Origin: a virus
IMG/VR virus record: IMGVR_UViG_3300030329_001969
Span: 1 to 39,693 of that record
DNA: 39,693 nt
Direction: 5' to 3' (one strand)
Under the pieces are notes generated by a model that was not told the DNA's origin, made no database searches, and saw only the letters and a list, made by a program, of their open reading frames with translations. How positions within the stretch are numbered: the stretch's first letter is position 1; each line of letters starts with the position of its first letter. The position numbers and the translations under genes were made by a program. Below, piece by piece: positions 8,693 to 36,600 of this stretch.

Positions 8693-9238
8693 TCAAAATC
8701 CCATATCGGTGCATAGGTAGGTGCGCGGCGTTTGATGTACTTTTTCGGTAAGTAAGTCAGGTAGACTTTCGTCTAGTTTGCCAGCTTTATCGACTAGGGT
8801 TTTACATAAGTTAGCAAATAAAAGGTGCACTGTAGTGTTTCCCATAGCCATTTCATCCGCCAGATACATACAAGCTTCAAATATATCCGCAACTTTAACT
8901 ACCTCTATGCAGTATTTTTCTAGTGTAGTGCTGTTCGTCTGTATACTACTAGCCATTTGTCTAGGTATATTCATCATATAATCATCGCTTAACTTAAAAT
9001 GGCGTTTGTATGGAGTAGGTATATCCCCGCTTATCATTTCTTCAAAGTCGTGGGTTAAAGCGTATTGGGAAATCCAATTAATATCAGATTTCTTCATTTT
9101 TATGTGTTTCGCTATAAAGACGGCGTACATAGCCACATAATAAGAGTGCTCTGCAACAGACTGTTGACGTATAGTTCGAATTATTGACCATCTAGGAACG
9201 TGCTGTAAAACTCTTGTTTGGGGGTCTAAAACGTTCAT
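8693..9238 (-). CDS. datZ: DatZ-like dATP triphosphohydrolase (HD domain)
   Basis: 181 residues of the HD-domain YfbR/DatZ group. Visible metal-site residues are His31 (in AEHS), His63-Asp64 (THDFEE) and Asp118 (VKVADIFEA), with GDIPTP at 71-76 and an N-terminal RW (16-17). YfbR-like proteins are 5'-nucleotidases of dNMPs; the phage DatZ subgroup instead strips triphosphate from dATP, removing adenine nucleotide so that the polymerase uses dZTP. Length close to S-2L DatZ and position in the same operon as PurZ and a MazZ-like protein argue for DatZ over a general nucleotidase. Its ATG overlaps the preceding stop (ATGA at 9235..9238). Substrate preference cannot be read from the sequence with certainty. 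Confidence 0.8.
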   Translation of the reverse strand: MNVLDPQTRVLQHVPRWSIIRTIRQQSVAEHSYYVAMYAVFIAKHIKMKKSDINWISQYALTHDFEEMISGDIPTPYKRHFKLSDDYMMNIPRQMASSIQTNSTTLEKYCIEVVKVADIFEACMYLADEMAMGNTTVHLLFANLCKTLVDKAGKLDESLPDLLTEKVHQTPRTYLCTDMGF

Positions 9239-9474: not shown

Positions 9475-10530
9475 TTAATTTTTACGTCTGCCTTCAGATA
9501 ACGTAACGTCTTCTATATTGGGGCCCCATCCAAACAGTAGTACGGGTTTTCCAGTTAGGCATTTTTCACTTTCATCCTCTATATCTCTTATTATTGCCGC
9601 TAGCTCAAATTCAGATACGTAATTACAAAAATTAAGAAATACAATACTTGGACGATTTGACATAATTGCATCTTCAAATTGTTGGCGGCTCCAAGTAAAA
9701 ATTCGCCGCACTCGCTTAGTTACGGTGGTTAGCTCTTCTGGTACTCCTAATTTTTCAAAACTAGTTTCTTCCTGATCGGGATAAACATCGCCACTATACC
9801 CTAAGTTTGGAATAGACCCTACTCTAATAGGATGAGTTCGTACCGACATTGCAACGTTCCCTAAAAATCTAGGGTGGATGTCTGCATCAGCTATCCCTTG
9901 CCCCACCGTACAATTTCGTGATGTGCAGTAGGGGTAAAACATACTGTTAACAGACAAGCTGTACCCCTGCGGTACTTCAACCGATACCCGTGCCTTGTCC
10001 ATTAAAGCCTGATTTAAATTTATTGGTGCCACGTTAAAGTAGCTACGAAGCTCAGGTGTATCTCTAGCAATTTCAGCCGTTCTTTTTACCTTACGGGCTA
10101 AAGCTTCTCCTACCCCCTTTCTTGTAGAAGAAATTTTGGTAGTTTGGGAGTCATCCCTATTTTCTGCTTCTATGTCCTCTTTAGTGATTACTGTAGCATT
10201 TGGATGAATAATCACCCTACTGTGTTTTATTCCTAAATCTTCAACCTCTTGTAAAAGTAATTCAACGTTTATAATTGCTCCAGCATTTAAATATATTAAA
10301 CAGTCAGGCTGTATAACCCCAAAAGTTGGTATGTGGTAACAGCAAAAATTCCAATTTTCATTCGTCTTAGATTTGGTCCAGTGACCAGCATTGGCACTGG
10401 CATTTGTGGTTGCTATATCTACTTCGTTCTCAAAACGGGCGGCTAAATATGCGGCTAATAGCCCCTTTCCTGTTGACCCAAACTGTCCGTCCACTAGCAC
10501 AGATGCTTTTCCCTCATTAATGTAACTCAT
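9475..10530 (-). CDS. purZ: PurZ, 2-aminodeoxyadenylosuccinate synthetase
   Basis: 351 residues, homologous to adenylosuccinate synthetase (PurA) but about 80 shorter than E. coli PurA, as in phage PurZ. The N-terminal loop reads DGQFGSTGKG (14-23). Where PurA has G-D-E-G-K-G, this protein has G-S-T-G-K-G, so the catalytic Asp is Ser19, the known hallmark of PurZ. The loop NASANAGH (43-50) keeps the catalytic His50. STRKGVGEALARKV and YPYCTSRNCTVG match PurA substrate-binding loops. PurZ joins dGMP and aspartate to form ADSMP using ATP, dATP or GTP; host PurB then releases dZMP. Start: ATG at 10530 has AAGAG at a proper distance; an in-frame ATG at 10545 would add five residues. It overlaps mazZ by 14 bases. 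Confidence 0.9.
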   Translation of the reverse strand: MSYINEGKASVLVDGQFGSTGKGLLAAYLAARFENEVDIATTNASANAGHWTKSKTNENWNFCCYHIPTFGVIQPDCLIYLNAGAIINVELLLQEVEDLGIKHSRVIIHPNATVITKEDIEAENRDDSQTTKISSTRKGVGEALARKVKRTAEIARDTPELRSYFNVAPINLNQALMDKARVSVEVPQGYSLSVNSMFYPYCTSRNCTVGQGIADADIHPRFLGNVAMSVRTHPIRVGSIPNLGYSGDVYPDQEETSFEKLGVPEELTTVTKRVRRIFTWSRQQFEDAIMSNRPSIVFLNFCNYVSEFELAAIIRDIEDESEKCLTGKPVLLFGWGPNIEDVTLSEGRRKN

Positions 10531-10822
10531 TATCTCTTTTCCCATTCTGATCTGCCCAAATTAAAAACCAAGCGTTACATATAACATGGGCTAGATGGTG
10601 TTGTCCGCTCTCAGGATCAACAATTTCTCCCTGTCTCCACGCCATTAAATGCCTCATCATTGCGTCAAAGTACCTGTCCCAATCGTCACAGTTTTTCCAA
10701 TTATCAACCCCGTACTTATTAGCCCCAAAATCAAAAATTGCAACTACTTGTTCAAGTACCTCATACGGTAACAAACGCCACCTCCTCTTATCCTTATCAA
10801 ATTTTTTATGAACGGCAATCAT
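10517..10822 (-). CDS. mazZ: MazZ-like dATP/dGTP diphosphohydrolase (DUF5664-type)
   Basis: 101 residues, starting at the ATG at 10822 that overlaps the VRR-NUC stop (ATGA), with AAGGA ten bases upstream. The protein matches the phage domain formerly called DUF5664 and now named after dATP/dGTP diphosphohydrolase: KKFDKDKRRWRLLPYEVLEQVV, then FGANKYGVDNW (32-42), RHLMAWRQGE and DPESGQHHLAHVICNAWFL (69-87). In Z-genome phages such an enzyme turns dGTP to dGMP, the PurZ substrate, and can also act on dATP. Direct overlap with purZ supports this role. A second MazG-like protein at 14752..15219 could share or replace the function, so the assignment is by family and context. Confidence 0.7.
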   Translation of the reverse strand: MIAVHKKFDKDKRRWRLLPYEVLEQVVAIFDFGANKYGVDNWKNCDDWDRYFDAMMRHLMAWRQGEIVDPESGQHHLAHVICNAWFLIWADQNGKRDNELH

Positions 10823-11226
10823 GCTAATTTCCTTATCTCTACCTCTGACCAGTATGTGATGGCAGTCACAATTTCTGCTACTTCCCACTCCTTGCCCGTC
10901 ATCGTAACTAAATGACAATTTCCGGCCTTTGGATAAAGTGCGCTTGGGTCCGCTCCTATATACAAGTTATGATAATGTCGTTCCTGTATATGCAAGAGCC
11001 AACCAGCTGGCATGTTCGCGGCGTGTAACCTTTTTAACGTTTCTTGTTGAAGTTTAGTCAGCTTTAATTCATCTTTCTTACACTCAACAAACACGGGGGG
11101 TAGAGTGGCAATTTTTATAAAAAGGTCTGGGACACCCCCTTGGTGTCGGTTTGCCATTTTTATGGCCCACCCTTTCTTTCGTTGGACCTCTTTTACTATA
11201 CGTGCCTGTAATTTTAATTCATCCAT
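10819..11226 (-). CDS. VRR-NUC domain nuclease
   Basis: 135 residues from the ATG at 11226, which overlaps the polymerase stop by eight bases. The VRR-NUC core is plain: GVPDLF (about 30-35, with the catalytic Asp), VFVECKKDELKLTKLQQETLKRL (about 44-66, E-x-K motif and the trailing Q-x-x-x-L-K helix). This is a PD-(D/E)XK-type fold that cuts DNA structures; phage stand-alone VRR-NUC proteins are thought to act as Holliday-junction or branch nucleases in recombination and packaging. It follows the polymerase directly, fitting a replication-repair role. Confidence 0.85.
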   Translation of the reverse strand: MDELKLQARIVKEVQRKKGWAIKMANRHQGGVPDLFIKIATLPPVFVECKKDELKLTKLQQETLKRLHAANMPAGWLLHIQERHYHNLYIGADPSALYPKAGNCHLVTMTGKEWEVAEIVTAITYWSEVEIRKLA

Positions 11227-13018
11227 AACTAGCCTCTGCCCAATTTTTACCTTCACCAACGTCCACATCCATCGGCACTAATAATGAAACCCCTCTGTCT
11301 GGACCAAAGTCCTGCATTATTTTAAGTGCTTGTTCAAATTGGGGCCTATTGTCCTCATAAAATTGAAAATCGATTGAATCATGTATGCTAAGTAACATAT
11401 GAACTTGATCTCCTTCTGATTCTAGGTAGTTGTCTATATCTACCATTGCCTTCTTTATTATGTCAGCGTTTCCACACTGTAGCAACCTGTTTACAGCCTT
11501 GTAACTCATGTCATGGGTTCTTGTATCTAGTCGTGCTCTACGTCCTAGGATACTTCTCACAAAACCCGTCCCCCTCATTTTAGATGCCGCCGCTCTCTGT
11601 AGCTGTTTGATTTCGGGCATTGACCTAAAGTAATCGTCCCAAATCTTTTCCCCTTGCGCCTCTGATACGCCTAATTCAGCAATTAATTTAGCCTTTCCCA
11701 TGCCAGTAAGTAACCCTTGATTCAGCCTTTTACCCGCATCCCTATCTATTCCTGCTGCTTTAGCAACTGCCGTATGTGCATCAATAGGGGGGTTCGATAA
11801 ATACCCCGATAACAGGACTTTACATTTTGAGTAATGGGCTAATAAGCGCGGTTCACACTGGCTGTAATCTACGCTACCCCAAATCATGCCCTCATCCGGT
11901 ATGAACACTGACCTAAACAACTTTCCAAGCTCTACGTTTCTTTTTGGTACTTGTTGCATATTCGGCCTAGATGAGCTTAACCTACCTGTTATTGTGCCGT
12001 ATTGGTCAGACCTCGACTGATTAAACTCTGTGTGTATTCTACCTTGGTGCATATAGGCGTACATGGGGTTAATAAACGAGTTGATTAAATTACCATACTT
12101 TCTAGCGGCAATAATTTTCTTGCCAAGGCTATTGGTTAGTAACCAACTTTCTGCAAACGATGGGTTTCCCTTATCCGTAGTGGGATAATCAGTAATTCCC
12201 GCATCGTCAAACAGTGCCTTCATCTGTGCGCCAGACCGGATATTTAAATCTGAAGGCAGATCGTTTTTAGCCTCTTCTAATTTTTGCGTGGTCTGATTGG
12301 CTACTTTATCTAATCTATCCTCATCTATATTAACCCCACGAGTTACCATCCTATGTAGTACCCGTATTACCTGATTTTCTAAGTGCCAAACCTGCCGTAA
12401 ATCTTGCTGGTCCAAATCTTTCTGTTGCTTTTCCCATAATTGGTAGGTAGAAGTTCCATCCCCTTCAGCATAGTCTACCCCCATTTCATCATTGCCACTT
12501 AAACGCCAGAAATTGGACATCTGTTTGCTCGTGTCCGGTCCCCCAAATTTTCCTTTTAGGTACTGGTACAGTTCGCTTCCTTTTTTAGGCTGTACCCCCG
12601 CATCGATACAACAATTTTCTAATGAATACGATGATCGATATTCGTTAATCAAACCAGCGTTGATCATTGTATCTTCAAAAGTACACTTTGATATGTCAAT
12701 CTGGTGTTTATGTAAAAATTTTAAATCAAAGGCTAAATTATGACCAATTAGATGGATACTGCGCTCTTTAAATATAGAGTGAACATCCATTTCAAAAGGG
12801 TGTAATTTTAATGTTTGTGTGGTTTCTGCGTCCTCTGGGGGGTAAAAGTCATAAAGGTTATTAGCCCTGTGGCGCACTGGTATATAATAACTATCAGCAG
12901 GATTTGGAGAAAAAGTAAAAACATAACCAACAATATAATTGCGCTTCCAATCCAAGCCACTAGTTTCGACATCGATTACTACCTTATCTGTAGTTGATAG
13001 CTTATTTAACACTTCCAT
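11219..13018 (-). CDS. Family A DNA polymerase with 3'-5' exonuclease (DpoZ candidate)
   Basis: 599 residues. The proofreading exonuclease is intact: ExoI DVETSGLD (about 16-23), ExoII HNLAFDLKFL, ExoIII DYAEGDGTSTYQLW. Polymerase motif A is VDYSQCEPRLLAHYS, motif B RDAGKRLNQGLLTGMGKAKL, motif C SIHDSIDF. There is no 5'-3' exonuclease domain. Motif C has Ser where most family A enzymes have Glu (HDE), and motif A has C-E-P for the usual I-E-L. It replicates the phage genome, likely with the PrimPol encoded upstream. In phages with purZ the family A enzyme (DpoZ) favours dZTP over dATP; whether this one does cannot be seen. ATG at 13018 follows a hairpin that may attenuate transcription. Confidence 0.9.
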   Translation of the reverse strand: MEVLNKLSTTDKVVIDVETSGLDWKRNYIVGYVFTFSPNPADSYYIPVRHRANNLYDFYPPEDAETTQTLKLHPFEMDVHSIFKERSIHLIGHNLAFDLKFLHKHQIDISKCTFEDTMINAGLINEYRSSYSLENCCIDAGVQPKKGSELYQYLKGKFGGPDTSKQMSNFWRLSGNDEMGVDYAEGDGTSTYQLWEKQQKDLDQQDLRQVWHLENQVIRVLHRMVTRGVNIDEDRLDKVANQTTQKLEEAKNDLPSDLNIRSGAQMKALFDDAGITDYPTTDKGNPSFAESWLLTNSLGKKIIAARKYGNLINSFINPMYAYMHQGRIHTEFNQSRSDQYGTITGRLSSSRPNMQQVPKRNVELGKLFRSVFIPDEGMIWGSVDYSQCEPRLLAHYSKCKVLLSGYLSNPPIDAHTAVAKAAGIDRDAGKRLNQGLLTGMGKAKLIAELGVSEAQGEKIWDDYFRSMPEIKQLQRAAASKMRGTGFVRSILGRRARLDTRTHDMSYKAVNRLLQCGNADIIKKAMVDIDNYLESEGDQVHMLLSIHDSIDFQFYEDNRPQFEQALKIMQDFGPDRGVSLLVPMDVDVGEGKNWAEASYG

Positions 13019-13077: not shown

Positions 13078-13917
13078 TTAATAGTCGTCCGTGTCTTCAA
13101 CATCGCCGTTTTCATCCTCGTCGCCACCTGCAATGCCAAAGCCCTTATTAGAGAAATGCTCGTACATTTCCTTATAGGTAGGCACTTCGGCCTCAGATAC
13201 TAATTGAGCAACTGAACGGCCATTTGACCCTTTCGACACGCTTGCACTAAAGTGCCAGTTAAAGTAACTCTCGTTGTCGGTGTTGCGGTCTTTCTTGCTG
13301 GTCATATCAAAGATACGTGCCCAACTTGGGAGTTTGCTTATCGCTAATTTCGACACAAACTGTTGACCTACCTTAAAAGAAGATCGTTGCAACGAGATCG
13401 CCGCTGGGCTTAAATCAAGGTGGTCCGGAAACATAGCTATGATATTTATCATCCTAGTAGCCGCTGGATGAGAATTTTTATCATCGGGGTCCATAGTTCC
13501 AAAATCAGTAAGACCCCCCTGTTGGACGGTTTTACCCGTGTTCCAGGTTACATTCTTACCCGTATCAAGTTTTACGTCAAACTCCGTGTTTGGACGGTCC
13601 CAATGAATTCCATCATCCGCACGGGCTAGGATACCACCACCATCCTTACGGGGTCTCCATAAAATTACGGATTGGGATACAAATACAGGGACCATTTTTA
13701 GGCTATCCCCCATAGATGTTTCAGCTACAGTGTGATAAAACTCACCCGCCTTGCCGCCATCGTCCATCACTTCTGGACTTAATCCCTGTAGCAACTTAAT
13801 GCGGGGTACGATTGTAAGGTCAGATACGTGCTCTGTGCCTTGACCTTGGTACTGTGCCAAATAATCAGGTACACTTACCTCTTGACTTTGATCTTTTTTA
13901 GCTGGTGCTTTTGCCAT
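13078..13917 (-). CDS. Putative single-stranded DNA-binding protein
   Basis: 279 residues, starting MAKAPAKK with a strong AGGAGA site upstream. The central region (about 30-240) is mixed alpha/beta without a motif I can name. The C-terminus (about 258-279) is highly acidic, GDEDENGDVEDTDDY, ending in an aromatic residue, like the tails of T7 gp2.5 and other phage SSBs that contact polymerase and helicase. Position next to the polymerase, separated only by an attenuator-like hairpin, fits an abundant replication protein. The call is from tail and context, not from OB-fold recognition. Confidence 0.5.
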   Translation of the reverse strand: MAKAPAKKDQSQEVSVPDYLAQYQGQGTEHVSDLTIVPRIKLLQGLSPEVMDDGGKAGEFYHTVAETSMGDSLKMVPVFVSQSVILWRPRKDGGGILARADDGIHWDRPNTEFDVKLDTGKNVTWNTGKTVQQGGLTDFGTMDPDDKNSHPAATRMINIIAMFPDHLDLSPAAISLQRSSFKVGQQFVSKLAISKLPSWARIFDMTSKKDRNTDNESYFNWHFSASVSKGSNGRSVAQLVSEAEVPTYKEMYEHFSNKGFGIAGGDEDENGDVEDTDDY

Positions 13918-13927
13918 ATCTATTCTC

Positions 13928-14419
13928 CTAGCTAACCTTCGTCATTGATGTGTTTTCGTAGCTATAGATGTTAAATACGTCATCTGGTAAATCAATACCC
14001 TCAGACATTAAACTCTTAGCCGTTGCAGAAAGAGTAGAAGAATTAACCGTCTCAGTAATCAAGTCTTCTAGCCCGTTATTGCGAAGCCATTCATAAGCCT
14101 CGTCTTTTCTATCCTTCTGGATAGTAGTACGTGATTGTGCAGAAACGGTAAATCGATACCCGTTTACCGTCATGCTGGATACACCCTGCTCAGTAAACTT
14201 CTTCGGCACAATTTCTTCTTTCATGCGCTTATGTAATTCACCAAATCGGGATTTTAGATACTTCAAATTTTCGTCTACGTGGCGTATATCCTGTAGAAGA
14301 GATACTACAGTGGGTACATCACACATAAGAATATTTTCCATATCCTTCTCTGCGTCTAATGCGGTCTGGTTGATCGCATCAATCATGTTTTTAAAGTCTT
14401 CTAGTTCTTTTTCAGTCAC
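13928..14419 (-). CDS. Conserved-type phage protein, N-terminal coiled coil, unknown role
   Basis: 163 residues beginning at a GTG at 14419 with AGATAGGAGAA nine bases upstream. The first 75 residues are helical and charged. The second half holds a small beta segment (SSMTVNGYRFTVSAQSRTT) followed by helical EAYEWLRNNGLEDLI and LPDDVFNIYSYENTS. The pattern recalls small proteins encoded next to SSB genes in other phages, but I know no assigned function. It sits 10 bases upstream of the SSB-like gene in the same operon, so a replication accessory role is a reasonable guess. Confidence 0.6.
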   Translation of the reverse strand: MTEKELEDFKNMIDAINQTALDAEKDMENILMCDVPTVVSLLQDIRHVDENLKYLKSRFGELHKRMKEEIVPKKFTEQGVSSMTVNGYRFTVSAQSRTTIQKDRKDEAYEWLRNNGLEDLITETVNSSTLSATAKSLMSEGIDLPDDVFNIYSYENTSMTKVS

Positions 14420-14762
14420 TAATTTGTTCTCCTATCTCAATTTCATAGTACCCCTTAAGCTTCTTATCATACTTAAGAAATACAGATGGTAACAGCCGCT
14501 TCCTTTCTAACCATATGGCTATAGTTGAAACGACACACGAATCGCCCAGAGGGACGATATAATCACACTCAGGGTCAAAGTCATGCATGGTCTTGTCACA
14601 TGCCGCTAAAATCTCCCTAGTGTAAATATTTACATCATCGGGGAAGTACCCACGTCTTAGTAGTGGGACCAAGCTTCCCCAACGAGACAAACTCTCAACG
14701 TCATGCTTATCACTAGGGATAGCCGTAATAAAGCACCTAGCAAACAAGTATCTAGCTGACAC
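14412..14762 (-). CDS. Hypothetical 116-residue protein
   Basis: Starts at a GTG (14762) that overlaps the end of the MazG-like gene by 11 bases; GGAAAG lies just upstream. The stop overlaps the next gene's start. It has no TM segment or clear motif. DYIVPLGDSCVVSTIAIWLERKRLLPSVFLKYDKKLKGYYEIEI in the C-terminal half looks like an alpha/beta fold, with VPLGDS resembling a nucleotide-binding loop only loosely. It is translationally coupled on both sides, which supports real expression. Function unknown. Confidence 0.6.
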   Translation of the reverse strand: MSARYLFARCFITAIPSDKHDVESLSRWGSLVPLLRRGYFPDDVNIYTREILAACDKTMHDFDPECDYIVPLGDSCVVSTIAIWLERKRLLPSVFLKYDKKLKGYYEIEIGEQISD

Positions 14763-15349: not shown

Positions 15350-15395
15350 ACGTAGTTTTCAGCTTTGAACGTAGTTTTCAGCTTTGAACGTAGTT
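15350..15395. repeat. 19-bp tandem duplication at the end of a small early gene
   Basis: The unit AGTTTTCAGCTTTGAACGT occurs twice in direct succession (15354..15372 and 15373..15391) with partial copies on each side. Because 19 is not a multiple of three it shifts the reading frame at the C-terminus of the gene at 15359..15883. Confidence 0.9.
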
Positions 15396-15883
15396 CCGTC
15401 GATGGTTACGTCTAGGCCTTTTCTCAACCTGCCACGTAGACGATTTCCGATATTCATCCGTTGCATGCCATTATTTAAATGTTCATACTTAGCTGGATCA
15501 ATGTCATTGTCTGCGGCTATAGCGTAGAGGTTAGGTATAGAAACTTTACCCTCTCCATTTACAGTTGCCTCTGTAAGAGTAGAAGCTATGTCATCCCCAC
15601 AGGAATCATTATTTGCCCTGTAAGTTTGTCTGTATCCGTCATCCATGATACGGTTTTTGCTTAACAAATCGCGAATGCTTTGTGCTGGAACACCACTATC
15701 TTTTCTGGTGATTGCTTCATCAAGTCCCGCTTTTGGGTCCGAATTTGTTGCCCATATTACAGGGTCTACTGCGTCTTTAAAAACGAACACGTCAGAAGGA
15801 CCACCCTCTTTAACTTGGTCCATTGTCGTGATTAGAATTTTAGCTTTTTCCGCTTTTGCAACGGTAGCGTGATGTAGTTTCAT
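15359..15883 (-). CDS. Early small protein, paralogue A of the 'W/Y-x-x-LNxG' family
   Basis: 174 residues. The N-terminal half (about 1-95) is specific to this copy. The C-terminal 80 residues match three other proteins in this window: SCGDDIA, then NDIDPAKYEHLNNGMQRMN, IGNRLRGRLRKG and a short beta end VTIDG. The shared core is basic and helical and could bind nucleic acid or protein; I know no function. Its start has AGATAGGAAAGG upstream and its own promoter at 15926..15954. A 19-bp tandem duplication has changed the natural C-terminus from YVD to YVQS. Confidence 0.7.
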   Translation of the reverse strand: MKLHHATVAKAEKAKILITTMDQVKEGGPSDVFVFKDAVDPVIWATNSDPKAGLDEAITRKDSGVPAQSIRDLLSKNRIMDDGYRQTYRANNDSCGDDIASTLTEATVNGEGKVSIPNLYAIAADNDIDPAKYEHLNNGMQRMNIGNRLRGRLRKGLDVTIDGTTFKAENYVQS

Positions 15884-15920
15884 GATTTCATCCTTTCCTA
15901 TCTAAAAACTACCAATCTAA

Positions 15921-15940
15921 GGGACATTAAACCATGTCCC
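15921..15940. promoter_or_regulatory. Inverted repeat around the -10 box, operator candidate
   Basis: GGGACAT and ATGTCCC are separated by six bases, and the loop plus inner arm contain the TTTAAT -10 element of the leftward promoter. A dimer bound here would block RNA polymerase. The arms also form a hairpin if transcribed, but they lie mostly at or before the expected start. Confidence 0.5.
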
Positions 15941-15954
15941 GTACACCTTGTCAA
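15926..15954 (-). promoter_or_regulatory. Leftward sigma70 promoter for paralogue A
   Basis: Minus strand: TTGACA at 15949..15954, 17-bp spacer, TTTAAT at 15926..15931. It lies in the gap between paralogues B and A, so A and genes beyond it can be expressed apart from the PrimPol gene. Confidence 0.65.
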
Positions 15955-15958
15955 TATC

Positions 15959-16243
15959 TTATTCTTTAAACTCCTTATCTCCTATGCGAACTACCCCGCC
16001 TCTACGAATTATACCACGTAAAACGTTACCAAGTAGCATCCGCCGCTGTCCTGCGTTGAGGTGGTTCCACTTTGAAACAGCTACCTTATTGCTTTCAGCT
16101 ACGTTTTTCATTTTTTCGGGATCAGTCCTACCCGTTTCGGGATCAGTTAAGAAGGCCGACAAAGCTTCAGCTACTTCGTCACTACAAGTTCCAGAACGTC
16201 CATACTTTTGCATAAACTTTCTTGTCATAAAATCTCCGCTCAT
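15959..16243 (-). CDS. Early small protein, paralogue B of the 'W-x-x-LNxG' family
   Basis: 94 residues, nearly only the shared domain: TCSDEVAEALSAFL, then NKVAVSKWNHLNAGQRRML, LGNVLRGIIRRGGVV and RIGDKEFKE. AGAGAGGAAAAA gives a good ribosome site before the ATG at 16243; a second ATG at residue 6 also has GGAG upstream. It lies ten bases after the PrimPol stop and 76 bases before paralogue A, suggesting local gene duplication. Function unknown. Confidence 0.7.
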   Translation of the reverse strand: MSGDFMTRKFMQKYGRSGTCSDEVAEALSAFLTDPETGRTDPEKMKNVAESNKVAVSKWNHLNAGQRRMLLGNVLRGIIRRGGVVRIGDKEFKE

Positions 16244-16253
16244 TTTTTCCTCT

Positions 16254-18566
16254 CTAGAAGTCTAAGTTTCTTTGATCAAAAGGCGGGGGTGCTTCGTAAT
16301 GGGACGCTATTTCAGCCTCTCCCGCCGACATCCACGTTTTGTAGTTTCTTACTGCCCATAGTTTTATTTTTTTACCCATCATTCTTTTAGCCCCCAAATT
16401 AGTGTACCCAAGCCTCTTTAAAGTCTGAGTAAGAGCAATCGGGTTTATACCTTTGAATCCCGGAGCTGTGTTCACTGCATGGGCTAAGTCAGTTGCGTTA
16501 ATCAAGTCACAGGCCATAGGCCACTCATCGTTATTTACGCACTCCATAATATATGAATCCATCGGCCTTGTTGTTTCGTCCACCATGTCGTGGAAATGTT
16601 TAGTCTTAGGCGGTGGGGCCTCAGGGTCAAAATTACTAAGATCGAAGTCTATTGCCCATCTGTATATAGTGGATAAGTTGTCCTTGGTCCAACTAAACAA
16701 CTTTTTATAATATGACGGGGGTTGCGGGTCCGCCTCAGACATCCACACCCAAAAACGACGACTGTCCTTATCTAGGATAATCGCGTTTGTGTGGTTAGTT
16801 GTACAGAAGAAAGATGCGGGGTTATTCGATACATAACTATCGGTCCTCATTTTTCGAATTGTAACGTTATCCTCAGACAACATAGGCTTCATCCGGTTTG
16901 CGATTTCTAATCGACCACCTGCCATAAGTTCTTCAATAAAGACAATTTCTGAATTTGCTAGCCAATCGTTGTACTGTTCTTTAAGCTGGTCCGTGCCAAC
17001 TTCCATTACATGGTCGTTACCAATAATGCCCCGAAATACCTGCTTGAGGTAACTCTTTCCTGTCCCCTCTTTATGAGAGCCGATAACCACAGCGTGTCTT
17101 AACCTTCTTCCAGGATTCGCTACCACGTGGGCTATACAGGATGCTAAATGATGAAATCCGTCTTCATCGCCATCCGTTAAATAGTGTAGGTGGTCTGTAA
17201 AAATAGAAACGTCCGCACCTTCATCACTTGGAATTATCCGTCTTGGTTGCCACGTGTTATAAATTCGACGACCCTTGTACATCGACATGGTTTCGTCTAC
17301 TCCCGGAACAAATTCACAAGTGTCCACCATTTTCAAATCTGGAGACTCAAGTAGAAGTTTAGCAATATTCTTTCCGGGAGCCATAGCCGCATGCGCTCTT
17401 TGCACCGCTGTGGGGGTAAAAGTTAAGTCTTTTACTGGATGGTAAAAAGCCTCTTCAAAAGCGACATAAATGTAGGTACTTAGTAACTCCGATATATCAA
17501 CTTTAGCTCTAGTCCCTCTAGCGAACCCTTTATTGATCGCACCTTCAATCAAACCGTCTAAAAATGAATCAGACTTATACCTGTCTACCTCTGACGGACC
17601 TCTATCCTCAGACACTTCAGCGTCATCGATGTAACTACGAACCAACCTTTTTAATTCGGTACGTGCCGCACTCTCAGGCTCTCCATGAAAATTGATCCAA
17701 CTCGCAATCCCCTGCATTATGGGGTGGTGGAACCCGTCCTTATCGTCCCCGACTGAGTTAAGAAAGCGCATATACTTTCTATCCTCTGGCTCGTCTTCAG
17801 AGGTGTAAATCCATTCTCTGGATAAAGGAACTGTATCATTAGCCCCTTTTATCACACCGCTTCGCTGTGCCATGGGGTCCTCTACGTCCTCAATAACCGG
17901 AGCCGCAGTATAATGAGGCTGTATCGGGTTAAACAAGGCGGGGTCCACCAATCTCCTCCCATATACCCCTAGGAAAGATTCGTTAAAAGTTTGAAAGTAC
18001 CGCTTTAAATCTTCATCACTGATGGGTACATCCAAAACAAAAGAAATGTGACAACTGACCGTCGTACCTTTGAACCCCGCACTGGCTGAATACCGCCAAT
18101 GGCAGGATGTGTCGTGAAATGCCGAAGGTAAAAGATCAATTACGTCACGAATCGTTGTCTCAGGGTCTTTGGGGTCAAATTCATGGCTGAGTATCTTTTT
18201 ATTCTTATCAGCTGGCAAACCATCGATGTCCAGAGTGACCCATCGCCTTAGCACGGGGGTTACCGTACCCTCTCCCGTAGCACGGACAATCCGACGCACA
18301 TCACAAGACAGGTCCGTTGTTTTTGACGGATGGCCGCGCACGATAAAAGAGTATTGAAGTTTTTGAAGCTTTTCTAACTGGTCAAAAAATTCGTCCGGTG
18401 TGTCAAACCTTCTAGTTCTAAACTGAAAGTTCTTTGCCACCTTGTGGCTAACCGTCTTACCCTTTTTGATGGTCTTGGTGCAGATTGATTTTGGAACAGG
18501 CGTAAGTATTAGGTACTCGTGCGGTACTGCTTCCTCGACTAGCTCTGCTTCTACTGTACGTGCCAT
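16254..18566 (-). CDS. PrimPol: AEP primase-polymerase fused to SF3/D5-like helicase
   Basis: 770 residues from the ATG at 18566 (the frame extends upstream only through a terminator hairpin). The N-terminal archaeo-eukaryotic primase domain has WVTLDIDGL (about 106-114, D-x-D metal motif), SCHISFVLD (S-x-H motif) and DPALFNPIQP. The C-terminal ATPase has Walker A SHKEGTGKS, Walker B SEIVFIEEL, and FFCTTNHTNAI followed by the arginine pair DSRRFWVW, matching DUF5906-type helicases. Such enzymes prime DNA synthesis and unwind DNA at phage origins. Phage S-2L, another Z-genome virus, also uses a PrimPol. Only weak GGTGGT lies before the start. It follows a strong terminator, so expression needs read-through or an unseen promoter. 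Confidence 0.85.
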   Translation of the reverse strand: MARTVEAELVEEAVPHEYLILTPVPKSICTKTIKKGKTVSHKVAKNFQFRTRRFDTPDEFFDQLEKLQKLQYSFIVRGHPSKTTDLSCDVRRIVRATGEGTVTPVLRRWVTLDIDGLPADKNKKILSHEFDPKDPETTIRDVIDLLPSAFHDTSCHWRYSASAGFKGTTVSCHISFVLDVPISDEDLKRYFQTFNESFLGVYGRRLVDPALFNPIQPHYTAAPVIEDVEDPMAQRSGVIKGANDTVPLSREWIYTSEDEPEDRKYMRFLNSVGDDKDGFHHPIMQGIASWINFHGEPESAARTELKRLVRSYIDDAEVSEDRGPSEVDRYKSDSFLDGLIEGAINKGFARGTRAKVDISELLSTYIYVAFEEAFYHPVKDLTFTPTAVQRAHAAMAPGKNIAKLLLESPDLKMVDTCEFVPGVDETMSMYKGRRIYNTWQPRRIIPSDEGADVSIFTDHLHYLTDGDEDGFHHLASCIAHVVANPGRRLRHAVVIGSHKEGTGKSYLKQVFRGIIGNDHVMEVGTDQLKEQYNDWLANSEIVFIEELMAGGRLEIANRMKPMLSEDNVTIRKMRTDSYVSNNPASFFCTTNHTNAIILDKDSRRFWVWMSEADPQPPSYYKKLFSWTKDNLSTIYRWAIDFDLSNFDPEAPPPKTKHFHDMVDETTRPMDSYIMECVNNDEWPMACDLINATDLAHAVNTAPGFKGINPIALTQTLKRLGYTNLGAKRMMGKKIKLWAVRNYKTWMSAGEAEIASHYEAPPPFDQRNLDF

Positions 18567-18686
18567 ACCACCACTAAACCATACCCGCCGTGTACTGTCA
18601 ATAAATTTTTCCAAAAAAAGACCCCTGCACCGCAATGGGAAGTGCAGGGGTTAAGGTCAGGGAGTATTACGACTACTGTACGTGCC
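18551..18686. repeat. 14-bp direct repeat flanking the terminator
   Basis: CTACTGTACGTGCC occurs at 18551..18564 and at 18673..18686. On the minus strand the downstream copy begins in the third base of the PrimPol ATG and the other lies upstream of the terminator. It could be a control site, or the scar of a duplication that placed the terminator between the copies. Confidence 0.6.
18613..18650 (-). terminator. Rho-independent terminator before PrimPol
   Basis: Minus strand: CCCCTGCAC pairs with GTGCAGGGG (nine base pairs, 11-base loop, 18622..18650), followed by TC and seven T (18613..18619). It ends the first early transcript after paralogue C. Confidence 0.85.
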
Positions 18687-18713
18687 TGTTACTAGTAAAG
18701 TAAAACACGGGGC

Positions 18714-19196
18714 CTAGGTAGGGGTCAACAGTTTGTCAAGATAATCGTTGTCCACCAGCTCCCCCCCAATATAGACTTTATCGCCTTTGTAGAACTTACC
18801 TCTGATCGTGTTGGTCAGGTTCATCGCCACCTGTCCGTTATTCAAGTCATCCCACCTTGCGGGGTTGATTCCGTTTTCCTTTGCTAATTCGTAGCAAGCC
18901 GATCTCCGCTCAGGGCCTTTTAAAGAACCAAGCCACTTTTTAATTGCAACCGTGGTAGGGTGCTGTACTTTCTCCCCTTTTACTTCTTTCCTTTCAAGAC
19001 GTGCGTCATAGGCTTCTTTGCGAATCTTTGCCCCCTCAACCTTTGCATTCCAACGGTGAGAGGTCGGCATTTTTAATAATGCTCCCGGATGAAGTTTACG
19101 TTGCTCATCTTCAAGTTTTGCTAGCCTCTTGTCCTCTTCGGTAATCGGCCTAATTAAAAAATCAGGAATATCAAGTAGGTCCTCTGTGTCTGTCAT
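18714..19196 (-). CDS. Early small protein, paralogue C of the 'W-x-x-LNxG' family
   Basis: 160 residues. The first 90 residues are charged and specific to this copy (acidic start, then K/R/E-rich). The shared domain follows: SACYELAKENGINPARWDDLNNGQ, VAMNLTNTIRGKFYKGDKVYIGGELV. It is the most diverged of the four, with T replacing G in the L-G-N block and no S-C-x-D-D start. The ATG at 19196 has AGATAGGAGAA upstream; a terminator follows 63 bases after the stop. Function unknown. Confidence 0.7.
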   Translation of the reverse strand: MTDTEDLLDIPDFLIRPITEEDKRLAKLEDEQRKLHPGALLKMPTSHRWNAKVEGAKIRKEAYDARLERKEVKGEKVQHPTTVAIKKWLGSLKGPERRSACYELAKENGINPARWDDLNNGQVAMNLTNTIRGKFYKGDKVYIGGELVDNDYLDKLLTPT

Positions 19197-19256
19197 TTTG
19201 TTTCTCCTATCTATCGGCTGGCTGGCTCGTCAGCGATGTGGAACCACCCACACCGG

Positions 19257-19274
19257 ACGGGGCTTTCACCCCGT
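19257..19274 (-). promoter_or_regulatory. Short GC hairpin between small membrane ORF and paralogue C
   Basis: ACGGGG and CCCCGT form a six-base-pair stem with a six-base loop. No T tract follows on either strand, so it is not a complete terminator. It may protect or fold the mRNA between the two genes. Confidence 0.35.
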
Positions 19275-19281
19275 TTCGCCT

Positions 19282-19368
19282 CTAAATTACCATTAAAAGA
19301 GTGGTGAATGTGCCTACCAAGATCAACATTCCAAGCAGATCGTCCATGAACTTGTCTCTGTTATCCAT
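19282..19368 (-). CDS. 28-residue single-TM peptide, coupled to upstream membrane ORF
   Basis: Begins in a TGATG overlap with the stop of the 58-residue ORF and encodes a charged start (MDNRDKFMDD) followed by one hydrophobic helix (LLGMLILVGTFTTLLMVI). Overlap and topology suggest a coupled membrane partner. It is too short for a family call. Confidence 0.45.
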   Translation of the reverse strand: MDNRDKFMDDLLGMLILVGTFTTLLMVI

Positions 19369-19544
19369 CAGTCGCACTCCAAGCAGAGAATTGCAAAAAA
19401 AGTGATTGATGACATGCAACAAAAAGTCAGGGCTATACCGTGCATCAATTCGCTGACAAAAACCTGACCAAAAACGACACTAAAAAAGAAGCCAAAAACG
19501 GCTAAAAAACTTAGTGTAAAACCTGTTAATACCAAAGCTTTCAT
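19368..19544 (-). CDS. 58-residue two-TM protein of the early operon
   Basis: Starts at the ATG at 19544 with the full AGATAGGAGAA ribosome site. Two hydrophobic helices (about 4-30 and 35-54) are separated by SELMHG, with Cys at 42, 43, 54 and 57. Early phage membrane proteins often block superinfection or alter host membrane potential; that is a guess here. The strong ribosome site shared with the other early genes supports real expression. Confidence 0.6.
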   Translation of the reverse strand: MKALVLTGFTLSFLAVFGFFFSVVFGQVFVSELMHGIALTFCCMSSITFFAILCLECD

Positions 19545-19557
19545 TTTTTTCTCCTAT

Positions 19558-19878
19558 CTATTCGTCATCATCAACGGGGCCAAAGGATATAGAATCCGCT
19601 GGCATTAGCCACTGATTATCGGGGTTTTTGGGGGCACCATTCATCGGCCACTCTGGGAGCCACTCGATTGATTCACAACCCATTTCAGATTCAAAGTGAT
19701 CTGTGAAAAGCCACGCTCCCTCATCGTCAGAGGTTTTAGCTTGAGCTTCTTCAAGGCTCTTAAAACCAAAAAGAACGTGCGTAACATCGTTCTTTTCCCA
19801 ACATCTTGCTTTCCGCACCCTGAGATCGTCGTAGTCTTCAACGTCCCCAATCAGTGGGATTCCTGCTTTTATTTCCAT
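19558..19878 (-). CDS. Hypothetical acidic early protein
   Basis: 106 residues from the ATG at 19878, chosen because AGATAGGAGAACC lies directly upstream; the open frame extends further but without a ribosome site. It is acidic, with MEIKAGIPLIGDVEDYDDLRVRKARCW at the start, VTHVLFGFKSLEEAQ and a Trp-rich C-terminal half. No motif recognised. Acidic early proteins of this size in phages are often inhibitors of host enzymes, but nothing here proves it. Confidence 0.6.
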   Translation of the reverse strand: MEIKAGIPLIGDVEDYDDLRVRKARCWEKNDVTHVLFGFKSLEEAQAKTSDDEGAWLFTDHFESEMGCESIEWLPEWPMNGAPKNPDNQWLMPADSISFGPVDDDE

Positions 19879-19966
19879 TTTGGTTCTCCTATCTAAGATT
19901 CTAACACACCGGAAGCTGGGCGGTAAAGTCCCAGCAACCGGAGCGTCTAGCTCGATTTTAAAAAAG

Positions 19967-20278
19967 TCAGACGACGATGTTAACCTGCTCTCCACGGTTT
20001 GCCATTCCCCGCAAAACGTTGCCCAAGTTCATCCGCTGCATTCCAAAGTTCAAGTGACCCCAACGAGTGCCGTCGATGCCGTTTTCATCACACATCATTG
20101 CGAAAAGACGGTTTCTGTCGTTGTCGTCTTCAGCATTAGAAAAGTGCACTTTTAACTTCTTGGCGATGTCGTCGTTGCAACTCTGGCTCTTGCCGTAAGC
20201 TTTTTTGGTCTTCGGATCGATGACGCTCTTGGTGACGACTTTTTCTTCAGTAGCTTCTTTTTTGGTTTTCTTTGACAT
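19967..20278 (-). CDS. First early gene, paralogue D of the 'W-x-x-LNxG' family
   Basis: 103 residues from the ATG at 20278 (AGATAGGAGAACC upstream). A Lys-rich start (MSKKTKKEATEE) precedes the shared domain: SQSCNDDIAKKLKVHF, CDENGIDGTRWGHLNFGMQRMNLGN, VLRGMANRGEQVNIVV. It is the first gene after the leftward promoter and thus likely the first expressed. Basic tail plus helical core would fit a nucleic-acid or host-protein binder. Function unknown. Confidence 0.7.
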   Translation of the reverse strand: MSKKTKKEATEEKVVTKSVIDPKTKKAYGKSQSCNDDIAKKLKVHFSNAEDDNDRNRLFAMMCDENGIDGTRWGHLNFGMQRMNLGNVLRGMANRGEQVNIVV

Positions 20279-20312: not shown

Positions 20313-20322
20313 ATTACTCAAC

Positions 20323-33677: not shown

Positions 33678-36600
33678 GTGACTATTCTTAAAGAAATGTA
33701 TAATAGAGGCGTAGACCCAGATATGTCGGTGGGGGCTATTTCTCTTATGAGAAAAGAAGCACAGAAAGAAGGAGTATCTAATCACGACTTTGATAAAGCA
33801 ATTGGACTTGTACCCTTTGATACTTCTCCCTTTCAAGAGTGGATGGTGGATAAAGCCCGTGAAGTCTATGGGGAGGATGGGGGAAAGTTTACTAGAGAAG
33901 TTTTTACATTAGATGATTTTTTACAAGCGGGTTTTGAACAGTCGGTTGTGTCTCTAGCTGTCCAGCCACAGTCAAAGGAAGCAAAAAGAGCCGCAAATTT
34001 AGAAAAATCCATAGTACAAGAGGGGGCACAAGCTTTAGGCACAGTTACGGGTGATTTGCCAGCTTTCATTGCGGGGTTTTTAGGTGGTACTGCGGCGGGT
34101 ATAAAAACTGGCCCAGGAGCAGTTGTGACGGGATTTGCGGGGTCTTTTGCTTTACCTGCCGTTCTTAGAACAGTGATGATGGATGCGTATGAAAATGGGG
34201 ATATAGATAGTTTCTCCAGATTTTGGGACCTATTTACAGAAACCACATATGAGGGGGCTAAAGGATGGTTAACGGGGGCGGCTACGGGGGGTGCACGTCT
34301 AGCAGTAGCTCCAATAGCCAATAAACTTCCAGGGGTCTTCCTAGGTAACACACTAACAACAGCTACGGAAATTGCCACATTTACAACGGTGGGGGCTGCA
34401 CTAGAGGGTAGGGTTCCAGAGCCAAAGGAGTTTGTGGTAGGCGCAATCGCTGTAGGCGGTCTTAAGGCGGGGGCTAAGATAGCTAAGACCACCCAACAAA
34501 GTTACAGGTCTGTAAGGGATAAGTTACAAGATATATATGCGTCTAACGGTAGGCGACCCCTTGAAGTTATGGAAGATTCCGCACAAGCGCATACTATTAG
34601 AGAGGACCTAAATTCTATTAATATTGAAACTCCTAGAGAGTATCAGACTAGGGAGCAGGCGCAAAAAGCGGCGGATACGACGGCAGATTCTTTGTCTAGA
34701 GAGACATTAGAGTTTAAAAAGCTTAATGAAGAATGGGTAATGTCAGAACCGGGAGAAGCTTTTGGTGAGCTATCTATAGAAAGTATGGTCAGAACCCAGC
34801 ATACTCCAGAGTTTTTAGAAGGAACTTATAATAGACTTCTTGCAGAGCACGGGCTGGATACTTTACATACGTCTGAACGAACGATACTTAGACAGTGGGT
34901 TGAGTCAGCTACGGGGGATATCACCCGATTAGACCACCTTTTTGTCCCTCTTAACGAGCCACTGGTTGTGTACCATGGATCGTCTACTAGGGGCCTTAAC
35001 AAGCAGGTGTCCGGTAGTTTGGCCCCAGACGTTGCTTTTACACGTGCAGACAAAAATTATGGGGAAATGTATCGTATAGTGTTACCAGCTGGGACTAGGG
35101 TTGCGCTCCCCTCTAAATCAACCCCTACTAAAGCTCTACAAAGTGAATTAGAAGTAGTTATACATCCAGAAAACAGAATAGAGGTTGTACGCGATCTGGA
35201 CCTTTCTGAGCCAGTAGTAGAAACCGTAGCTGATCCTTCAAGACGTGAATTTATGAAGCAAACTGGTGCGGCTTTAGCTACAGCAGCTGTGAAAAAGATC
35301 GTACCTATTAGTGAATTAGTTCCACCCCCAGCAAAAACTGTAGCCAAAGATAACTCTGTAATTAGTTTAATACCCAGAGAAGCATTTGACGCTAGTAGGG
35401 AGTTATCATCGTTTTTTCTTCCTCGTTCTTCTGCGATAAAAGAAATGAAGCAATTAGGAATAAATGAAAAAGATTTTGAGGTGCTTACGTTTCATAAAGA
35501 CAGTGCCGTTAAAACGTGGGAAGAACTTAGTAAATCGTTAGACCAGACTGAAATGAGAGAGATTGGTAGAGATATTATAGTTATTACTGATAAAAACGAA
35601 ATTTTAGTAGACAGGGTTATTACTGATAACAAAGTTAATAAAGAGTATGAAAGGGCTATAGAGGAGGGAGATGAGTGGGGAGCTTATATATATCCAAAAT
35701 ATGTAGAAAAAGGTTGGCATGTATTAGAACAATCAGACGTTTTTCACGGAACAAGTTTAAAAAAGGCCTTAGAATTTGATTCCGCTAGTATTGAAGCTCT
35801 TGCAGAGCGCATATCTGCTGAACGTGGAGGAAATAAACAAGAGATAATTAAGGAGATAATTGAGGAGGAGTTGCCGTTTGGATTAGCGGAAAGCCACCCT
35901 AATACTGCCAAAACAATAGCTGAGTCTATTTACGCTGAGGCGGAAGCAAAGGCAATATTAAAATCTGGGGAGGGGCGTTTAGCTGGTGCAGGTCCTGAGG
36001 ATGTACAATTAGAGGCCCCTGCAGAAACTCCTGCGTTAGAGGCCCCTAAATTAAACGTACAGCGCATTGGGGACGCTAGAGTAGTTAGAAGGGATGCTAC
36101 TACGGAAGTTAGTGAACGAATATCGGTAGGAGAACCTTCTGGGCCAAAACGCAAGTATGGTTGGAACGAAATATACCGCGATCTGTGGGATGACTTACAC
36201 CCCTTAAATCAGGTGGTAAAGGCTATTACTAACGGAGAAAAGATTCCTGCAAACACGGACCCATATATTTTGGCTAGAAATCTTAAGGGCGTGTCTGGTG
36301 TTGGAGATCACTTTTTAGAATTCGGTGCTTTAGATTTTGCTACTAAATCCCCAATCGGGGAACCTTTAAGAGATATTATTCGGCCTATAGATCGGAGGGG
36401 GGAGCTACAAGCGTTTAGGGAGTACGCCATAGCTAGAAGAGCACTTGAAATGGAAAGAAAGTCCCCTCCGGTGGAGTCGGGTTTTGATCCTGTAATGTCG
36501 GCGGAGATAGTTAAAAAGGGGAACGCTAAGTTTGATGCCCCGTTTGCAAGATTAAGAGAGTACCAGACAAGACTATTAGAATATGTACGAGATTCGGGCC

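Follow-up and report, generated by a model that had tools for sequence, protein, structure and literature searches.

Four related small proteins of a PurZ-encoding phage are candidate DNA-binding proteins of Z-genome phages

Why does a single virus record of 39,693 nucleotides (IMG/VR record IMGVR_UViG_3300030329_001969, analysed at its full length and called the window hereafter) encode four diverged copies of one small protein domain? The genes are named P0001 to P0004 in order of position (Table 1). Z-genome phages carry 2-aminoadenine (base Z) in place of adenine, and what is known about them mostly concerns how this base is made and incorporated. The phage of the 39.7-kb window very probably has a Z genome itself, as judged from a gene block that encodes PurZ, a DatZ-like hydrolase, a DUF5664 enzyme and a family A polymerase. 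We propose that the four proteins are probably accessory DNA-binding proteins of Z-genome phages. This proposal is based on the co-occurrence of the domain with PurZ, the mostly basic character of the proteins, histone H1-like stretches in their relatives and the fusion of a cellular relative to a nuclease.

The four genes are paralogues, as a sequence-only reading of this DNA had claimed. A profile built from any three copies and run against the 234 open reading frames (ORFs) of the window retrieved the copy left out with expectation values (E) of 9.2e-20 (P0001), 3e-16 (P0002), 1.8e-13 (P0003) and 7.4e-21 (P0004); the next window ORF reached E 0.085 or worse and the best of 20 shuffled ORF sets 0.071. 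Likewise, P0004 (103 residues) searched against its own genome found the other three copies at 7.7e-15, 7.1e-14 and 1.0e-7. The coordinates given in that reading are correct for all four ORFs, and the strand, which it left unstated, is minus in each case. P0004 is the first gene by position in the leftward block, and an alternative upstream ATG at 20314 would lengthen its product to 115 residues. The shared domain spans about 75 residues, starting with a short stretch that contains Y and G-x-x-S, followed by D-x-V-A-x-x-L, a helix and the C-terminal core Y/W-x-H-L-N-x-G-M/Q-x-R-M-N-x-G-N-x-L/I-R, the end part of which (L-N-x-G-[MQ]-x-R-M-N-x-G-N-x-[LI]-R) is almost invariant. The motif [WY]..LN.G[MQ]..M occurs in all four copies and in no other window ORF, and [ST]C.D[DE], as described before, in three of the four. 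GN.[LI]RG...[RK]G holds for three copies and fails in P0003, which has TN instead; the string NGI[DN]..[WY], being one residue too short, matches none of the four as it had been written.

Beyond the window, clear orthologues of P0002 are present in the related contigs G001, G004, G006 and G007, and orthologues of P0003 in G001, G006 and G007. In the tree of related contigs, P0002 and P0003 fall into starred clades and P0004 into a starred clade of five rows, P0001 being placed without a resolved clade. The strong selection postulated from sequence is borne out only in part, in so far as three of the four copies have orthologues that are kept in related contigs and the non-synonymous divergence (dN) is below the synonymous one (dS); dS, however, is saturated in most pairs, and a dN/dS ratio is therefore claimed only for P0002 versus G004 (dN 0.40, dS 1.58). 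As the paralogues are retained as orthologous sets, the presence of several of them per genome suggests divided tasks.

Among sequenced phages, the domain family is found almost only in PurZ phages. In tblastn searches against 50,697 phage records, P0004 retrieved 56 records (E ≤ 1) and gp37 of Alteromonas phage ZP6, the best query, 57 (E ≤ 10). PurZ is encoded in all 57 domain-bearing records, a strongly positive outcome of the co-occurrence check that the sequence-only reading had suggested. Conversely, the window PurZ matched 200 phage records, and the 57 domain records all fall within the 60 top-ranked ones. Of the three top-60 records lacking a tblastn domain match, one is cyanophage S-2L and the other two belong to Ochrobactrum phage OH, for which an iterated profile finds three divergent domain copies. 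Judged from 60 rows spread across them, the remaining 140 PurZ records match less well and mostly belong to actinobacteriophages, with hosts such as Arthrobacter, Microbacterium and Gordonia; from similarity and host, and with no tree of our own, we take them as the PurZ0 group described in the accessible part of PMC12884076. Domain copies per genome number four in the window, three in OH and in the 25-67 kb part of Bm1, two in phiVC8, 69E27.1, ZP6 and BUCT555, and one in SH-Ab 15497, PMBT28, PSA28 and Kokobel2. Other types of query did not bear out the idea of a motif common to phages in general with an only apparent PurZ link. Divergent OH-type queries match phage OH alone, and 49 of the 51 phage records matched by a cellular-type query (E ≤ 10) are Z phages. 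The other two are Serratia phage KpGz_1 (E 9) and Streptococcus phage Javan235, the latter a chance match (E 0.2, profile E 3.3) to a gene that follows the portal gene. One phage member searched against plasmids gave no match.

A domain-first search of IMG/VR led to 78 loci in 76 records, with PurZ in 49 of the 76; near-duplicate contigs are included in these counts, so that not all records are independent. PurZ was present in 2/8 of these records below 10 kb, 6/18 at 10-20 kb, 7/16 at 20-35 kb and 34/34 at 35 kb or more, and given this dependence on record size the misses look like fragments. In the opposite direction, a PurZ-first search yielded 80 records, 27 of which contain the domain according to the first profile and five more according to the iterated profile only (32/80). 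Among large PurZ records, the first profile detects the domain in 12/19 at 35-70 kb and 1/8 above 70 kb, and the iterated profile in 15/19 at 35-70 kb. Among large PurZ records, a DpoZ-like polymerase (E <1e-100) is encoded by 14 of 16 domain-bearing ones compared to 2 of 12 domain-free ones, the latter group including S-2L (Fisher p 3e-4, kinship of records ignored). On these counts, what the family accompanies is the combination of PurZ and a DpoZ-type polymerase, not PurZ by itself.

Such an association is also what one would expect if the proteins were partners of the Z replication machinery, i.e. of DpoZ, a single-strand-binding (SSB)-like protein or PurZ, for example as a clamp-like or loading factor, and S-2L, which has neither a DpoZ-type polymerase nor the domain, agrees with it. 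However, two domain-positive records lack a DpoZ-like polymerase, two domain-negative records have one, and both the several paralogues per genome and the nuclease fusions in hosts without PurZ (see below) fit a dedicated partner poorly, so that we consider this explanation quite unlikely. Alternatively, the family could have been carried along with an ancestral replication module of PurZ and DpoZ with no functional link to base Z. PurZ is common to all carriers and DpoZ to most, and in the siphovirus members the gene lies a few genes away from PurZ and DatZ. Nevertheless, the family is kept at one to four copies in podoviruses and siphoviruses whose genomes otherwise differ, and none of the 57 carriers has kept the domain after losing PurZ, which makes hitch-hiking very unlikely. 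A separate observation concerns five viral contigs of 142-287 kb (loci L055, L056, L062, L067 and L082 of contigs G040, G041, G047, G052 and G067), which encode PurZ-like proteins together with neither the domain nor a clear DpoZ-type polymerase; they may represent Z phages that have large genomes and are built differently.

The composition of the proteins points towards DNA. In the IMG/VR contigs, 66 of 82 family genes code for proteins with an isoelectric point (pI) above 8, compared to 406 of 1020 other genes, and 15 of 82 contain an H1-like stretch (24 residues rich in lysine/arginine plus alanine/proline) that is found in 0 of 1315 others; some near-duplicate contigs are contained in these sets. 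An earlier count of such stretches over all ORFs gave 29/135 versus 5/3347. In some relatives a Tudor/SH3-like barrel or zinc-finger-like cysteine motifs occur as well, and we count these features for the same reading. The family thereby resembles histone-like and nucleoid-associated proteins (HU, H-NS, H1-like) in being small, mostly basic and multi-copy, with H1-like lysine/alanine stretches in some relatives. It differs from them in its tie to PurZ phages, and neither sequence nor fold comparison matched it to any such protein. With PurZ, DatZ, MazZ and DpoZ, the family shares the phages and the early/replication part of the genome; in contrast to these enzymes it matches no enzyme family and its copy number is more variable (0-4).

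A second pointer towards DNA comes from cellular relatives. A domain search of a genome collection gave 16 loci. PurZ is encoded within the locus for L234 and L237 and elsewhere in the genome for L236; L233 and L235 lie on short contigs and their genomes have only weak, PurA-level matches, and the eleven remaining loci (L238-L248) are alphaproteobacterial or Nitrospinae genes in genomes with PurA-level matches or none. In five of ten scanned cellular relatives, all five alphaproteobacterial and with Sphingomonas and Caulobacter among the sources, the domain lies on the N-terminal side of a C-terminal BisI-type nuclease (PADLOC mREase_II, E 8e-50 to 3.4e-54), and the closest structures of one such fusion are the BisI-family endonucleases Eco15I (E 1.5e-30) and NhoI. 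The window proteins differ from this family in lacking the nuclease part, since P0001 and P0004 gave no PADLOC match and none of the four a Pfam nuclease. Among the 15 of 113 plasmid matches of the fusion protein that were listed, most cover the nuclease part only. The fusions share the plan of a small extra domain plus a nuclease with the sensor-nuclease restriction enzymes (DpnI-type winged helix, PUA and NEco domains) treated in the accessible text of PMC11037411, and the domain is unrelated to those sensors in sequence as far as Pfam shows. As side observations, a stretch of about 110 residues with no Pfam name precedes the domain in L242, L243, L245, L246 and L248 (rhizobia, Bosea, Nitrospinae), and the domain gene of L245 lies downstream of a 575-residue gene that is primase-like by eye and perhaps belongs to a mobile element.

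Since host BisI-type nucleases bear the same domain, a free phage copy could compete with them for their target, and the four proteins might accordingly be anti-defence factors that cover the DNA or compete with modification-dependent nucleases. The fusion form is rare, though (1 of 240 Alphaproteobacteria, this one being the query genome itself), and occurs in hosts that differ from most hosts of the phages. In addition, no known anti-defence family was matched, a weak point given that PADLOC models describe defence and not anti-defence. Of all explanations weighed here, we regard this one as the most improbable. A bolder form of our own proposal, which we consider rather unlikely, would make the domain a reader of 2-aminoadenine DNA, of which one to four copies coat and run the phage DNA, and the alphaproteobacterial BisI-type fusions a restriction enzyme that recognises Z-DNA and defends against Z phages. 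To our knowledge, no defence of this type has been described.

How could DNA-binding proteins serve a Z genome? The extra 2-amino group of base Z sits in the minor groove of the DNA, where it would disturb ordinary groove-reading proteins. If host DNA-binding proteins were for this reason unusable on Z-DNA, Z phages would need their own, and the paralogous forms would act as coat, architectural or transcription-helping proteins. In line with this idea, the width of the minor groove is controlled by purine 2-amino groups, and adding one inhibits binding of Fis, according to the accessible part of PMC3711457. We infer that the domain binds duplex DNA and, one step further removed from the data, that it suits Z-DNA. 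The sequence-only reading had offered DNA binding (perhaps for Z-DNA compaction), modification of RNA polymerase and anti-defence as possible functions. The combination of PurZ co-occurrence, basic charge, H1-like stretches and fusion to a restriction nuclease favours DNA binding tied to the Z genome, with compaction as such, polymerase modification and anti-defence as possible roles.

Transcription offers a further explanation, in which the domain binds protein instead of DNA and acts on the host RNA polymerase or sigma factor to cope with Z-containing -10 boxes. Sensitivity of sigma factors to A-to-Z substitution is reported in the accessible part of PMC8342488, and one copy, P0004, stands first in the leftward block. 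Moreover, the barrel present in some relatives is similar to several structures, one of which is a KOW domain of DSIF (VIA Z 5.1). In the AlphaFold model of one such relative (L199:7311-7721, pLDDT, i.e. predicted local distance difference test, 91.9), this N-terminal five-stranded barrel (residues 2-38, pLDDT 96-98) is followed by a hairpin and four helices and resembles Tudor/SH3/KOW folds with a Foldseek probability of 1.00 at E ~0.2. Barrel matches at VIA Z ~5 are generic, however, and the BisI fusions and H1-like stretches indicate DNA, so that we judge an action on RNA polymerase to be unlikely. A promoter scan of 14.7-21.0 kb found 10 sites versus 9.9 in shuffles, i.e. no excess. The domain itself is predicted to fold as a beta-hairpin followed by helices; in the AlphaFold model of P0004, built from 102 sequences (pLDDT 81.4), the better part has helices at 37-45, 52-66, 70-73 and 78-94.

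Several results weigh against the proposed role as DNA-binding proteins of Z-genome phages. P0001 is acidic (pI 5.9), and the H1-like stretches were scored in relatives only, the four window proteins being left out of that count. PurZ also occurs without the domain. No copy was found in S-2L with either the profile or the iterated profile, none of the 140 weaker (PurZ0) records matched ZP6 gp37 at E ≤ 10, Wayne and Ghobes are profile-negative, and the three copies in phage OH, which depend on the iterated profile, reach only E 0.0071 (domain E 0.16) in the first round. In IMG/VR, 48 of the 80 PurZ contigs lack the domain; many of these are short, and among the large contigs 4/19 at 35-70 kb and 7/8 above 70 kb are without it. 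Three contigs counted as positive by the iterated profile (G053, G062 and G063) show no domain with profile A6, and moving them to the negatives changes the polymerase counts to 11/13 versus 5/15. Co-occurrence may furthermore stem from common descent of the replication module, and the eleven cellular relatives in genomes without PurZ imply that reading of Z is not a necessary property of the domain itself. Finally, structure comparison yields no significant fold match: the helical domain has no Foldseek match below E 0.17, the P0004 model finds nothing significant in the PDB or among viral structures (best viral A0A889IQW4, E 0.67, and A0A889IR23, E 0.95), and the best hit of a PDB sequence search with a 102-row profile (E 0.05) was rejected, leaving no solved relative. 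The best VIA match of the helical domain (Z 6.5) covers 48 residues in helices of tryptophanyl-tRNA synthetase and is too weak to use.

A well-known domain of set function, which according to the sequence-only reading would have spoken against its view of the family, did not emerge. Pfam and NCBIfam searches gave no credible family for any of the four proteins, the matches to TraP (0.13) and AcMNPV_AC11 (0.13) being at chance level. Only PHROGs of unknown function were matched. The same domain is present in phrog_8941 (phiVC8 p36) and phrog_8878 (phiVC8 p46), and the phrog_8941 profile recognises P0001 (E 4.7e-8), scores P0004 and P0002 at 0.0012 and 0.0026, and does not match P0003. These PHROGs differ from the family defined here in being narrow and separate from each other, in leaving P0003 outside and in carrying no function. 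No description of the family was found in open papers, subscription papers and preprints lying outside the search, nor in the accessible parts of PMC12884076, PMC8599892, PMC8342488 and PMC8515928. Already known is that such proteins form PHROGs of unknown function; new are the grouping of all copies into one family, its link to PurZ and DpoZ and the nuclease fusions. The presence of the family follows the PurZ/DpoZ genome type almost perfectly, which offers a candidate in addition to the polymerase and the nucleotide enzymes, and its sequence can serve to recognise genomes of this type. With purified proteins, it can be tested how DNA with an extra minor-groove amino group at each former A is packed, read and transcribed by a phage, and the bacterial nuclease fusions are a concrete lead towards a possible defence against Z-genome phages.

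Table 1. Family genes, Z cluster and other features of the window.
Feature	Coordinates	Strand	Length	Remarks
P0001	15359..15883	minus	174 aa	C-terminal domain behind a divergent N-terminal extension; sole acidic copy, predicted pI 5.9
P0002	15959..16243	minus	94 aa	almost bare domain; pI 9.7
P0003	18714..19196	minus	160 aa	most divergent copy, cysteine motif absent, TN replaces GN; pI 8.5
P0004	19967..20278	minus	103 aa	domain preceded by a lysine-rich N-terminus; pI 9.4
DatZ-like HD hydrolase	8693..9238	minus		Pfam YfbR-like, E 3e-18
PurZ (2-aminoadenylosuccinate synthetase homologue)	9475..10545	minus		Pfam Adenylsucc_synt, E 2.3e-25; closest is PurZ of phage OH, 44% identity
dATP/dGTP diphosphohydrolase, N-terminal type (DUF5664)	10517..10918	minus		PF18909, E 1.2e-32
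Family A DNA polymerase	11219..13018	minus		alignable with DpoZ of Z phages; Pfam DNA_pol_A, E 5.2e-65
Three adjoining genes	13078-14762	minus		match Pfam families named for cyanophage Pam3 gp34, gp33 and gp32
Primase/helicase-like protein	16254-18635	minus		DUF5906, VapE-like
Protein with LPD38 polyvalent-protein domain	33678-38729	plus	1683 aa	domain near C-terminus

The window polymerase shares 27-38% identity with the DpoZ-type polymerases of eight Z phages. The primase/helicase-like gene separates P0002 from P0003. Among the relatives, the siphovirus member (L006, L007, L014 and L015) is one long protein with zinc-ribbon-type cysteine pairs, and the domain of PMBT28, PSA28 and Kokobel2 is preceded by a C2H2-like motif; both features were read from the sequences, with weak Pfam matches.

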